Part shown: positions 13,775 through 41,944 of the stretch, piece after piece | Numbering within the stretch: the first letter of the stretch is position 1 | Layout of the letters: each line of letters starts with the position of its first letter | Assembly: GCA_012517285.1 (NCBI GenBank) | Contig: JAAYVG010000005.1 | Span: 1 to 64,000 of the forward strand | Origin: Elusimicrobiota bacterium | GTDB taxonomy: Bacteria > Elusimicrobiota > Elusimicrobia > Elusimicrobiales > UBA9959 | Reading direction: 5' to 3' | Length of the DNA stretch: 64,000 bases | Position numbers and translations under genes: made by a program | The notes under the pieces: generated by a model | What the model was told of the DNA's origin: nothing | What the model saw: the letters and a program-made list of their open reading frames with translations, nothing else | The model's database searches: none

Positions 13775-13942
13775 GGTCAGAGGACAGAGATCAGAAGTCA
13801 AAGCCTGCCTGCGCCGAAGCCGCTTCGGCAGGCAGGCTTGCCTGCCGAAGATATATCAGCAAAGTGGTGAATAACCACAGTCGTTTTGCTGATAAGTTTA
13901 TCGCAGGCAGGTAGGAACTGATCACTGACCACTGACAACTAA
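13775..13942 (+). repeat. Intergenic repeat cluster with GC-rich palindrome
   Basis: The 193 bases between the DUF2344 gene and rng hold, in order: a purine-rich TCAGAGGACAGAGATCAGA stretch; a 33-base GC-rich palindrome (13804-13836, core GCCGAAGCCGCTTCGGC flanked by CCTGCC and GGCAGG); a second CCTGCC/GGCAGG pair around a structured segment at 13854-13894; and the simple repeat CTGATCACTGACCACTGAC. Related palindromes lie at 21748-21780 and 41811-41844. The high GC content contrasts sharply with the flanks. No coding potential is supported. Confidence 0.75.
13854..13894 (+). other. Two-tier hairpin inside the repeat cluster
   Basis: TATCAGCAAA (13854-13863) pairs with TTTGCTGATA (13885-13894), and between them GTGGT (13864-13868) pairs with ACCAC (13874-13878) around GAATA. 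This gives a 10-bp and a 5-bp stem separated on one side by a 6-base bulge (AGTCGT). It could be part of a mobile repeat or a structured RNA; there is no T-tract for termination. Confidence 0.45.
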
Positions 13943-17355: not shown

Positions 17356-18142
17356 CCCTCCAATAGGAATCTTTGACTCTGGGCTTGGAGGGCTTACAGT
17401 TTACAGAGAGTTGAGGAAAATCCTACCATCAGAAAATATTATATATTTTGGTGATACTATGAGGGTTCCATATGGCAATAAATCGACAGAAAGCATAAAA
17501 ATATTTTCATCAGAGATTTCACAGTTTTTGCTATCGCTCGGTGTTAAGATGATAGTGGTGGCATGTAATACCGTATCATCAACATCACTTGACATAATAG
17601 AGAGCATAACAAAGCTTCCTGTTGTCGGAGTTATTGAGCCGGGTGTTAAGCTTGCTATTAAAAAGAGCAAAAATAAAAAAATAATAGTTATCGGCACAAG
17701 AGCAACTGTAAACAGCCACTCATATAAAAACAAGATAGAAGAAAATGATCCAACCATTGATGTCATAGAAAAGGCCTGTCCGCTTTTTGTTCCGATTGTT
17801 GAAGAAAACTTTGTAAATCACAAAGCATCGCTTTTGATTGCAGACGAGTATCTCGGTGAGTTTAAAAGCAAGGATTATGATACCATAATCCTTGGCTGTA
17901 CCCATTATCCACTTATTAAAAACTTGATAAAAAAGGTCTTGAGTGATATAAATATTATTGATTCGTCAAAGGCCTGTGCTGGTTATGTCAAAGACATACT
18001 CACAAACAATAATATGCTTTCTAAAAATGATGGAGATGGCTGGACTGATTTCTATGTCAGTGATAAGCCACAGAACTTCATGGAGTTAGCATATAGATTG
18101 GCTGGTGTTAAAATATGTAAAATAAATATTAAAAGGTTTTAA
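17336..18142 (+). CDS. murI: Glutamate racemase
   Basis: MurI supplies D-glutamate for peptidoglycan precursors in the cytoplasm. The 268-residue protein shows IGIFDSGLGGLTVYREL with the catalytic-site Asp14 and Ser15, FGDTMRVPYGNKS, VVACNTVSS with catalytic Cys77, GVIEPGV, and LGCTHYPLI with the second catalytic Cys188 and His190. Length is standard. The start lies inside the end of amiC (20-base overlap), so these two wall genes are tightly coupled. Assignment is secure. Confidence 0.96.
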   Translation: MKTRTNNPPIGIFDSGLGGLTVYRELRKILPSENIIYFGDTMRVPYGNKSTESIKIFSSEISQFLLSLGVKMIVVACNTVSSTSLDIIESITKLPVVGVIEPGVKLAIKKSKNKKIIVIGTRATVNSHSYKNKIEENDPTIDVIEKACPLFVPIVEENFVNHKASLLIADEYLGEFKSKDYDTIILGCTHYPLIKNLIKKVLSDINIIDSSKACAGYVKDILTNNNMLSKNDGDGWTDFYVSDKPQNFMELAYRLAGVKICKINIKRF

Positions 18143-19323: not shown

Positions 19324-20562
19324 ATGAAAAGACTTATAGCAGTATTAGCGGCAGTGACAGTTATGTCATCAATTGCCAGTGCCGAGTTGCTTAAAAACTT
19401 CAAGTATGACGGTTCTTTAGAAGTAAACGCCTATAATGTTGACAATGCCATAGACTTTGACAGCGACACAGATGATAAAAATGGCAAGGTTGACACAAGG
19501 CTTATATTGAACATGGGTTTTGACCTAAACGATGATGCAAACGCTGTTGTTACCCTTACAAAGAATGACAGACAGTGGGGAACTGGTTCCCAGAATGGAG
19601 ACAACATTCAGACCAATGTTTGGGTCGATCAGGCTTATTTAAACCTCAAGGGAGTTATGGGTCTTGATCACAGGGTTGGAAGGCAGTTCTATGGAAATCC
19701 TGGGGATCTTGTCATTTATTACGGACCAAAAATGTGGCCTTATCAGACAAACATTGGTGCGATAAGTGCCATAGATGCATGGGTTGGAAGCTACAAATAT
19801 AATGACTGGGAGTTTACAGGATTGATGGGAAAACAGTCTGATATTGGTGCTACTATGGGTATAAACTTGAGTGGTATTGATGTTAAAACAAAGCTTGCTG
19901 GCTTTGACCTTAATGCATATTATTACTATCAATCTAACAATATAGTTGATTCTCATTTAGGTTTGATCGGTTTAAGAGCAGGCTATGACATGAGCAAGTT
20001 TGTTAATGGCTTAAGCCTCTCTGGCGAGTATGATGCAAACAATGGCAGCAATAATACAACCAATAAGGATTATAAGGGTTCTGCATACAAGTTAAATGCT
20101 TATTACTCTATGAGCTTAGCCGGAAAGTTAGGCCTTAAAGCAGAGTATGCTTATCTCTCAGGTCAGGATACTTCATCTGATAATAAGGTGTTTACGCCAA
20201 TCAATGGGGATTATAGACCTGGTATAATAGCAAATGGCTATGGTACAAGCGGTGTTTACCTTGGGGCAGTCGGAACAGGCAATAAAGTTTTATCATTAGG
20301 TGCAAACTGGACACCATCAGCAATTGAGAAGTTAAACATTGCAGTTGACTATGTTAACCTTAAGGTTGCAGAAGAAAATGCAGGTATGAATGATACCATT
20401 GGAAATGAGTTTGACTTAACATTGACATGGACGCATTCAGACAAGCTCTCATTAAAGGGCTACTATGCATTCTTATCACCTGATGAGGACAATGCAAAAG
20501 CAATACTTGGAAAGGATGATGCTGAAACAATGTTAGGCGCAGCGTTTGTTGTAAAGTTCTAA
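19324..20562 (+). CDS. Outer-membrane beta-barrel porin-like protein
   Basis: The 412-residue protein has a classical signal peptide (MKRLIAVLAAVTVMSSIASA) and then alternating amphipathic strands rich in Gly, Asn, Asp and Tyr. Examples are RLILNMGFDLNDDANAVVTL and LNIAVDYVNLKVAEENAG. The last strand ends in phenylalanine (AAFVVKF), the usual signal for outer-membrane insertion. It is a single-gene unit with its own strong promoter and a strong terminator. It resembles short-chain porins or alginate-export-like barrels in style, but substrate cannot be deduced. It supports a diderm cell. Confidence 0.85.
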   Translation: MKRLIAVLAAVTVMSSIASAELLKNFKYDGSLEVNAYNVDNAIDFDSDTDDKNGKVDTRLILNMGFDLNDDANAVVTLTKNDRQWGTGSQNGDNIQTNVWVDQAYLNLKGVMGLDHRVGRQFYGNPGDLVIYYGPKMWPYQTNIGAISAIDAWVGSYKYNDWEFTGLMGKQSDIGATMGINLSGIDVKTKLAGFDLNAYYYYQSNNIVDSHLGLIGLRAGYDMSKFVNGLSLSGEYDANNGSNNTTNKDYKGSAYKLNAYYSMSLAGKLGLKAEYAYLSGQDTSSDNKVFTPINGDYRPGIIANGYGTSGVYLGAVGTGNKVLSLGANWTPSAIEKLNIAVDYVNLKVAEENAGMNDTIGNEFDLTLTWTHSDKLSLKGYYAFLSPDEDNAKAILGKDDAETMLGAAFVVKF

Positions 20563-20590: not shown

Positions 20591-20622
20591 GAACCCCGCA
20601 CCCTGTGCGGGGTTCTTTTTTT
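20591..20622 (+). terminator. Rho-independent terminator after the porin gene
   Basis: An 11-bp perfect stem (GAACCCCGCAC with GTGCGGGGTTC, loop CCT) is followed by seven T residues. It lies 28 bases after the porin stop. It is the clearest intrinsic terminator in the window. Confidence 0.92.
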
Positions 20623-20637
20623 CATCGAATTACTCAT

Positions 20638-20734
20638 CAACCGCGTAGGTTGGGTAAACTGAAAAAAACTAAATTAGTGCTTGAAATTCAATCTTTTATC
20701 TGCTAAAATATAAAAAACCCAACCTACGCGGTTG
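20638..20734. repeat. Inverted pair of REP-like palindromes (REPIN-like) before the RAYT gene
   Basis: CAACCGCGTAGGTTGGGT at 20638-20655 and its exact reverse complement at 20717-20734 form an 18-bp perfect inverted repeat around 61 bases. Each arm is itself a small palindrome: AACC and GGTT around a GCGTA or TACGC loop. The right arm ends directly before the GGAAGGA ribosome binding region of the tyrosine transposase gene. Another palindrome with the same AACC-TACGC-GGTT core lies at 31240-31260. Pairs of inverted REPs beside a RAYT gene are typical of REPIN/RAYT systems. Confidence 0.75.
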
Positions 20735-20742
20735 GAAGGATT

Positions 20743-21378
20743 ATGATTTATCATATAATGAATAAAAGTATTGAGGGTTACAAAATATTTATAGATGATG
20801 CTGATTCTAAAAGATTTATTAAAGCAATGATTTATTATTCTTATCAAAGATCCATAAAAATACCATTTAAAGAGTATTTAAAAATTATAAGCGAAAAAGA
20901 AGGGAAAAGTGGTATTAATAAGATAATTAGTTTTGCTCCTTTAATTAATATAATCTGTTATGTTGTTATGCCAAACCATTTTCATATATTATTGGATGAT
21001 TTTAAAAATAATTATCTATCAAAATATTGCAACAACCTCTTAGATAGCTATACTAGATATTTTAATGTTAAATATCAGAGAAAAGGACCGCTATGGCAGT
21101 CGAGGTTTAAGAGGATCCCTGTAGAAAAAGATCAGTATTTTATACACCTAACAAGATATATACATCTTAATCCTGTGACAGCATTTCTTGTTGATTCCCC
21201 AAATATTTGGGAGTTTTCCTCATACAACGAATATCTGAGTGGGAAGGAAAACATATGTAATTATTTGAATTATTTTCCTGATAAATATAACTTTAAAAAG
21301 AGTTATGCAGAGTTTGTTAATGATAGAATTGATTATCAGAGAAAGTTGGCTGAAATTAAGCATATGATCTTTGATTGA
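20743..21378 (+). CDS. REP-associated tyrosine transposase (RAYT, Y1_Tnp family)
   Basis: Proteins of this family are single-domain HUH endonucleases related to IS200/IS605 transposases and process REP sequences. The 211-residue product shows the family start YHIMNKSIEGYKIFIDDADS, the HUH motif in VVMPNHFHILL (His79 and His81), the GPLWQSRFKRIPV segment and YFIHLTRYIHLNPV, where Tyr132 or Tyr139 is the candidate nucleophile. The start ATG at 20743 has a close GGAAGGA site that abuts the right REP arm, so folding of the repeat could affect translation. An insertion around residues 40-65 is longer than usual. Role in REP spread is inferred from the family and from the flanking repeats. Confidence 0.85.
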   Translation: MIYHIMNKSIEGYKIFIDDADSKRFIKAMIYYSYQRSIKIPFKEYLKIISEKEGKSGINKIISFAPLINIICYVVMPNHFHILLDDFKNNYLSKYCNNLLDSYTRYFNVKYQRKGPLWQSRFKRIPVEKDQYFIHLTRYIHLNPVTAFLVDSPNIWEFSSYNEYLSGKENICNYLNYFPDKYNFKKSYAEFVNDRIDYQRKLAEIKHMIFD

Positions 21379-21747: not shown

Positions 21748-21780
21748 CCTGCCTACGCCGAAGCGGCTTCGGCAGGCAGG
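21748..21780 (+). repeat. GC-rich palindromic repeat, second copy
   Basis: A 33-base element with core GCCGAAGCGGCTTCGGC flanked by CCTGCC and GGCAGG. It differs from the copy at 13804-13836 at only two positions (TAC for TGC in the left arm, CGG for CCG in the loop). It is followed by a diverged segment GACGAAACAGCTTCGCC. The surrounding sequence is AT-rich. Confidence 0.8.
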
Positions 21781-21831
21781 CCTGTGACGAAACAGCTTCG
21801 CCATGCTGGTTCTATTGGATAATTCTAACTA

Positions 21832-31232: not shown

Positions 31233-31267
31233 GAACCTGAAGTAACCTACGCGGTTACTTTTGGTTC
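31233..31267. repeat. REP-like hairpin with AACC-TACGC-GGTT core
   Basis: AAGTAACC (31240-31247) pairs with GGTTACTT (31253-31260) around the loop TACGC. A further GAACC/GGTTC pair (31233-31237 with 31263-31267) is separated by 2-base internal loops. The core is the same as in the two palindromes before the RAYT gene at 20638-20734, about 10.5 kb away, so it is probably a mobilised copy. Confidence 0.65.
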
Positions 31268-31316
31268 TTCCCAAATAACTAGACAACCAAACAACTAAAT
31301 AACCAATTTGTTCTTC

Positions 31317-31389
31317 CTAAACAACTAAATAACCAGATAACCAATTTATCTGTCTTCATCTGATGTCTTATCCGTTTACATCCTGATGA
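31317..31389. repeat. Left arm of a 73-bp perfect inverted repeat (partner 41670-41742)
   Basis: These 73 bases are the exact reverse complement of 41670-41742. They include CATCTGATGTCTTATCC and TTTACATCCTGATGA. Next to the arm a 20-base segment (TGTTTACATCCTGATGAATC type) is duplicated, and the similarity continues imperfectly on both sides. The block between the arms holds seven complete genes. Confidence 0.85.
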
Positions 31390-31422
31390 ATCTGTTTACA
31401 TCCTGATGATTAAATAACTAAT

Positions 31423-31450
31423 TTGTCAGCCAGTCAAAAATTGATAGAAT
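31423..31450 (+). promoter_or_regulatory. Sigma-70 promoter giving a leaderless MFS transcript
   Basis: TTGTCA at 31423-31428 and TAGAAT at 31445-31450 are spaced by 16 bases. The ATG at 31458 lies 7 bases after the -10 box, at or next to the expected transcription start, and no ribosome binding site fits between them. Confidence 0.65.
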
Positions 31451-41576: not shown

Positions 41577-41944
41577 TTATTTGGTTATTTAATCATCAAG
41601 ATGAAGACAGATTCATCGAGATGTAAACGGATAAGACATCTGATGAAGACAGATAAATTAGTTATTTAATCATCAGGATGTAAACGGATAAGACATCAGA
41701 TGAAGACAGATAAATTGGTTATCTGGTTATTTAGTTGTTTAGTTGTCTGGTTATTTAATGGAAACAGAGGTCAGAAGTCAGATGACAGAAAACAGAAGGC
41801 AGAAGACAGAGCAGGCATGGCGAAGCGGCTTCGGCGTAGGCAGGGACAGAAATCAAAAATCAGAAATATTAGGAGTTTACTTTTAAAGATTATAATTCTA
41901 TAATATAGTTATAAACAGTAAATATGAGGTTTTGAGGAGGAGGA
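41577..41944. repeat. Repeat-filled gap with right arm of the inverted repeat
   Basis: This 368-base gap contains two direct copies, 57 bases apart (from 41620 and 41677), of a unit including GATGTAAACGGATAAGACAT. It also holds the 73-bp arm at 41670-41742 that matches 31317-31389 in reverse, TTAGTTGT-type words, a purine-rich GGTCAGAAGTCAGATGACAG stretch and a GC-rich palindrome (41811-41844). A frame across 41700-41903 is not a supported gene. The GAGGAGGA ribosome binding site of the next gene closes the gap. Confidence 0.75.
41811..41844 (-). repeat. GC-rich palindromic repeat, third and diverged copy
   Basis: Read on the minus strand this copy has CCTGCCTACGCCGAAGCCGC followed by TTCGCCATGCC. 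It matches the left arm of the copies at 13804 and 21748, but the right arm is diverged (GCCATGCC instead of GGCAGGCAGG). As at 13775, a TCAGAAGTCA-type purine stretch lies beside it. Confidence 0.65.

Follow-up and report, generated by a model that had tools for sequence, protein, structure and literature searches.

The stretch of DNA analysed, hereafter the window, comprises 64,000 nucleotides (64 kb) of an uncultured Elusimicrobiota bacterium. Within it, a porin gene is followed by a terminator-like hairpin, by two short REP hairpins facing each other and by a gene coding for a RAYT, a REP-associated HuH/Y1 transposase (Table 1). The terminator-like hairpin is a neighbour that lies outside the REP pair. 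The left arm (CAACCGCGTAGGTTGGGT) and the right arm (ACCCAACCTACGCGGTTG) of the pair are 100% complementary, and each is a small hairpin itself, closed by the loop GCGTA or TACGC. An earlier note on this DNA had described a perfect 18-bp inverted repeat with palindromic arms, built of AACC and GGTT around TACGC or GCGTA, placed directly before a Y1 transposase with an HFH motif, as well as a third hairpin of the same core further along the window. All of these features stand: the ORF starts 8 nt past the right arm and contains PNHFH, and the third hairpin is present, encloses the common core in a longer stem and is predicted to fold.

Table 1. Features of the RAYT locus and of the distant single REP, with positions numbered from the first nucleotide of the window.
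Feature	Positions	Strand	Basis and remarks
Terminator-like hairpin of the upstream porin gene (19324-20562)	20591-20615	+	11-bp stem, then T run
Left REP	20638-20655	-	core AACC-GCGTA-GGTT at 20639-20651; perfect inverted repeat with 20717-20734
REPIN spacer	20656-20716	.	61 nt separating the arms
Promoter-like site TTGAAA-17-TAAAAT within the spacer	20681-20709	+	10/12 consensus matches, TG before the second hexamer; weak
Right REP	20717-20734	+	core AACC-TACGC-GGTT at 20721-20733; abuts the RAYT ribosome-binding region
RAYT, 211 aa	20743-21378	+	PNHFH, GPLWQSRF, YIHLNP; Pfam, NCBIfam, tree, structure model
Single REP, amplified AAGT...ACTT subfamily	31233-31267	+	core at 31244-31256; predicted to fold

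The cores of the window pair are spaced by 82 nt. As single-stranded DNA, the whole pair is predicted to fold with -23.7 kcal/mol (z -8.0), and the predicted REPIN folds range from z -6.8 to -8.8. In the window, the core has three matches, compared with an expectation of 0.16, and three were reached in none of 100 shuffles. The window also holds intergenic repeats of other kinds. A second palindrome, GCCGAAGCSGCTTCGGC within CCTGCC...GGCAGG, lies at 13804-13840, 21748-21784 and 41810-41844, one copy being 370 nt downstream of the RAYT, and occurs genome-wide at 74 places with at most one mismatch (reversed pattern 0). A mosaic repeat (AACCAAATAACTAGACAACC.../CATCAGGATGTAAACGG...) is found at 31271-31427, adjoining the 31.2-kb REP, and at 41581-41756; 73 nt of it are perfectly repeated in inverted order 10.3 kb apart, and 64 matches are listed genome-wide.

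The RAYT protein matches the Pfam family Y1_Tnp (PF01797) with an E value of 4.3e-7 and scores 58.5 bits against the NCBIfam model REP_Tyr_transpos (NF047646), under its equivalog cut-off of 80. The Pfam scan at E 0.001 detects nothing besides Y1_Tnp and thus no helix-turn-helix extension. The attributes by which a RAYT is recognised, i.e., the HuH motif, the catalytic tyrosine in a Y---NP motif and the Y1 fold, are all present, and the residues H79, H81, Y139 and N143 are invariant among the 35 sequences aligned. The predicted structure (pLDDT 90.7) has its best match in 4er8, the E. coli TnpA-REP in complex with a REP (Foldseek E 1.6e-6, TM 0.51/0.64). The protein is best explained as a putative IS200-related HuH/tyrosine endonuclease of single-strand DNA. 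A hairpin scan of the flanks places the REP pair upstream of this gene only, which differs from the two-sided flanking described for RAYTs.

The genome of the host, 1.96 Mb in 52 contigs, was searched with the reversed patterns as controls. The core AACCTACGCGGTT has 50 exact copies and 77 at no more than one mismatch, whereas its reversed pattern has none; the counts are probably doubled at the overlapping contig ends C4/C17 and C13/C42, where four ends probably represent two elements. The wider class AACNKACGNNGTT has 112 matches against 8 in the control. The pattern AACYNNNNNRGTT was rejected as a census motif, being too loose (262 against 226 in the control). Several contigs end within these elements. 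ORFs of at least 100 aa contain none of the 50 exact copies, although they make up 65% of the surrounding DNA that was fetched. The flanking DNA of 91 segments falls into 51 clusters, which indicates that most copies are in unrelated places and that some stem from local duplications. Among exact copies with a neighbour within 200 nt, 12 pairs are spaced by 74 nt (11 in -+ and one in +- order) and three pairs by 21 nt (+-). The combination of inverted REPs, a preferred spacing, a predicted fold, a high copy number and extragenic dispersal is that of REPINs. The population of about a hundred hairpins between the genes of this Elusimicrobiota bacterium is confirmed. The earlier note had proposed that a population of REPINs with TACGC loops exists in a lineage outside the well-studied gammaproteobacteria and had asked for the distance and strand of the pairs; the proposal holds, with a preferred distance of 74 nt, mostly in -+ order, and neither three copies only nor a chance frequency, the outcomes that it had set against itself, was found. 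Rfam yields only matches far under the gathering scores of the families, and tblastn against plasmids only distant partial ones.

The copies differ by their outer arms, according to which 106 of them were sorted. The AAGT...ACTT type accounts for 49 of the 106 and comprises the 74-nt REPINs as well as many REPs that stand singly, among them the one at 31233-31267. The GTCC...GGAC type has a TACGA loop and often forms direct pairs at 44-45 nt. A third type is found on contig C31, among ATPase-like genes. The window RAYT is accompanied by outer arms (ACCC...) that have no second occurrence among the 106 copies. Some further repeats were observed along the way. The sequence TATAAAATTGTGGGCAAAGTCA occurs at 13 places with at most three mismatches (host loci L002, L007, L020, L078 and others) and often directly adjoins a REP of the AAGT...ACTT type. 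REP-like hairpins of the form GTCCAACYTACGAAGTTGGAC (L071, L072, L075 and L076; contigs C11, C35, C44 and C5) are arranged in direct pairs, 44-45 nt apart and with the spacer conserved, and no RAYT is linked to them at these four loci. On contig C31 (L031, 1-6500), five REP pairs with 21-nt spacing lie between several ATPase-like genes; a reading of these regularly spaced repeats as integron attC sites was rejected, since the repeats are REP cores also present elsewhere.

The host genome contains three RAYT genes, mutually distinct and single-copy, and a truncated remnant on contig C16. The other RAYTs are 43-57% identical to that of the window, with 57% for the one on contig C40. The remnant (about 17537-17647) matches 37 codons of a RAYT start and lies between two 74-nt REPINs. 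Beside the C31 RAYT, the hairpin scan of the flanks shows no such REP. On the other hand, the C40 RAYT has AAGT...ACTT REPINs on both sides, and the agreement of the outer arms suggests that the large population most likely belongs to, and is driven by, the C40 RAYT. It may be supposed instead that the window RAYT mobilises the whole AACC-TACGC-GGTT population, AAGTAACCTACGCGGTTACTT hairpins included, with the outer arms being irrelevant for recognition. The 13-bp core and its loop are indeed identical between the window pair and the population, and the RAYTs of the window and of C40 stand next to each other in the tree. The private outer arms of the window pair, the REPINs with amplified arms around the C40 RAYT and the mere three copies in the genome of G001, which of these RAYTs has only the orthologue of that of the window, nevertheless make this unlikely. 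The window RAYT is probably not the driver of the population and is best explained as a paralogue that is maintained and has REPs of its own.

The orthologue in the sister species G001 follows the same porin gene, so that the window RAYT persists at the orthologous place. Upstream of it are two AACCGCGTAGGTT copies, 64 nt apart and in direct order. The intergenic DNA of G001 was judged too diverged for a comparison of empty sites, given that the porin and RAYT proteins are 62% and 57% identical between the two species. The differences between the two RAYT genes at the three codon positions (0.33, 0.22 and 0.62, with synonymous sites saturated) are in keeping with what is expected under purifying selection. 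In both species the right REP adjoins the ribosome-binding region of the RAYT. The spacer holds the promoter-like site of Table 1, in a scan that gave 7 such sites against 6.0 in shuffles, i.e., about the chance level; the corresponding place in G001 can be read as TTGACA-17-TAAAAC. The upstream REP pair may also act as the promoter and leader region of the window RAYT, and a control of the RAYT by the pair is possible.

The copy number of AACCTACGMGGTT amounts to 66 in the host, 27 in G006, 9 in G021, 3 in G001 and none in most other genomes. The core and the RAYT were both looked for in 41 genomes, and the core is found in 7 of the 8 with a close RAYT and in 1 of the 33 without (Fisher test, 2.8e-6, shared ancestry uncorrected). 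In G006, all 20 TACGC copies read have TAC...GTA arms, as have the hairpins beside its own RAYT. These observations bear on whether the hairpins could be host elements, such as terminators, stabilisers of mRNA ends or protein-binding sites, which are kept by selection and whose closeness to a RAYT is secondary. The strictly intergenic position of the copies would agree with such roles, which PMC3733652 reports for REPs elsewhere. However, the copy number tracks the presence of the RAYT, the outer arms match the RAYT-adjacent ones within a genome, the pairing at 74 nt is fixed and a terminator-type T run is missing from most copies. The host-element explanation is therefore quite improbable.

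A scan of named genomes recovered RAYT relatives with identities of 38-51%, whose hosts include Omnitrophota, Elusimicrobia, Endomicrobia, Auribacterota, Berkelbacteria and Roizmanbacteria. The earlier note had suggested placing the RAYT in a family tree, and it falls in a clade of 87 that is separated, with support 100/95, from other RAYTs belonging to the host's family. Within the clade, the window RAYT stands beside that of G001 and then that of C40 (support 100/92 and 100/95). The clade is spread over Omnitrophota, Elusimicrobiota, Auribacterota and Patescibacteria; it was sampled through its conserved peptide patterns and is not a random sample of RAYTs. The flanks of 85 members were analysed with the loci oriented. 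Matching repeats of at least 14 bp, mostly palindromes, occur on both sides of 60 of the 85 RAYTs, against 1.6% of mismatched pairs. Hairpins with a YMCGN pentaloop lie within about 200 bp of 52 of the 85 (on both sides in 33), compared with 2 of 156 control windows and 1 of 17 RAYTs outside the clade. Of these 17 other RAYTs, 11 have flanking repeats of at least 14 bp as well. These repeats differ in kind, and some share their GGGGAC ends with TIRYTs. Flanking repeats do not by themselves single out the clade; the pentaloop core does. Distant RAYTs of the host's family (L180, L183, L186, L185, L188, L190 and L191) were seen with AAAAGGTNGC palindromes or TIRYT-like GGGGAC ends.

Of the 110 best hairpins, 90 have CACC, AACC, GACC or CACT beside the loop, and the loop is mostly TACGA, CCCGG, TCCGA or TACGC. 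The hairpins of the clade have the core ACC-YMCGN-GGT, with an outer stem that differs between RAYTs. Copies of ACCTACGAGGT range from one up to 400 among the genomes counted. The highest number is that of G071 (the genome of L102, Omnitrophota BS750m-G21), with 400 copies in 1.6 Mb against 0 in the control; many of its copies form inverted pairs or triplets spaced by 14-26 nt. There is an even chance that this clade, characterised by GPLW and THxH and by motifs resembling those of subclass 2.1, is an undescribed RAYT class of Omnitrophota, Elusimicrobiota, Auribacterota and Patescibacteria that recognises perfect ACC-YMCGN-GGT pentaloop palindromes, with its specificity in the loop and the outer stem and not in a GTAG foot, and that sustains up to about 400 REP copies.

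Short dispersed repeats with inverted ends and a Y1 transposase fold would also be expected if the hairpins were MITE-like remnants of an ordinary IS200/IS605 or another insertion sequence, unrelated to the RAYTs. This explanation is extremely improbable. The only Y1 genes of the host are its three different RAYTs and the remnant, and there is no multi-copy IS200 among them. Instead of the Y---Q motif and the near-identical multi-copy transposases of IS200/IS605, the system has distinct RAYTs with YIHLNP. Furthermore, the palindromes flank RAYTs in many phyla.

The window very likely contains one RAYT locus belonging to a REP/REPIN-RAYT system of an Elusimicrobiota genome, in which RAYTs spread the REPINs, most likely with the C40 RAYT as the driver and the window RAYT as a maintained paralogue. 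Judging from the sequences, the REPINs would move with the help of the RAYT. Dimers of the RAYT would bind the hairpins in single-stranded DNA and would cut and rejoin them, and the REPINs would spread while the RAYT gene stays single-copy. Work on RAYTs and REPs has so far dealt mostly with groups whose REPs have a GTAG foot. The clade joins REPs devoid of that foot, phyla known mostly from metagenomes and RAYT motifs that match a group reported as REP-free, and it is thereby a natural test of hairpin recognition by RAYTs. In addition, one genus contains both the C40 RAYT with an expanded population and the orthologous RAYTs of the window and G001, kept with almost none, a contrast that bears on why hosts keep RAYTs.

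The system appears to work like the REPINs and RAYTs described previously (PMC3116915, PMC2817692). Those of Pseudomonas fluorescens SBW25 (PMC3116915) are likewise extragenic inverted doublets linked to distinct single-copy RAYTs, with a preferred REP spacing of 71 bp compared with 74 nt here. The present system differs from them by its Elusimicrobiota host, its other RAYT branch, its perfect pentaloop palindromes and the lack of a GT[AG]G foot. This sequence of canonical REPs is seen at 0 of 76 hairpin feet in the host genome and at 1 of 220 next to RAYTs of the clade; GTAG does occur on one core strand (GCGTAGGT), within the hairpin and not at its foot. The E. coli TnpA-REP/REPtron (group 2 or subclass 2.2; 4er8) shares the HuH/tyrosine fold, the WQ motif and the Y..xNP motif. 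However, the REPs of E. coli combine a GTAG foot with a bulged stem, and the positions aligned with E100, H101 and R104, which contact GTAG in E. coli TnpA-REP, are occupied by other residues here.

The statements on RAYT groups and subclasses are based on PMC6006769 and PMC8266576. Subclass 2.1 of TnpA-Y1 has the motifs NHVH or NH[YF]H, W[EQ] or FQ, and YIELNP or Y[IV]HLNP, a median length of 238 aa and a C-terminal helix-turn-helix extension, with no REP-like sequences reported (PMC6006769). The window RAYT agrees with these motifs (NHFH, WQ, YIHLNP) and shares with subclass 2.1, or RAYT group 1, an SS motif after the core (PMC6006769). On the other hand, REPs are present here, the protein has 211 aa and no helix-turn-helix extension, and 74 of the 85 clade members have THxH, unlike the NHFH of the window RAYT. 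TIRYTs, which are probably the same as subclass 2.1 or RAYT group 1, are similar in having flanking repeats, some of them self-complementary (PMC6006769, PMC3733652). The clade may be an unsampled TnpA-Y1 subclass, the comparison with 2.1 being one of motifs and description. Hairpins that do not have the GT[AG]G consensus are also known as the atypical structures of subclass 2.6, which is found in Bacteroidetes and has YIH[QN]NP and weak structures (PMC6006769), in contrast with the Y[IV]HLNP and the strong perfect palindromes of the present system. As far as the searchable literature shows, the host phylum, the REP type and the RAYT branch are new, and the system is ordinary in kind.
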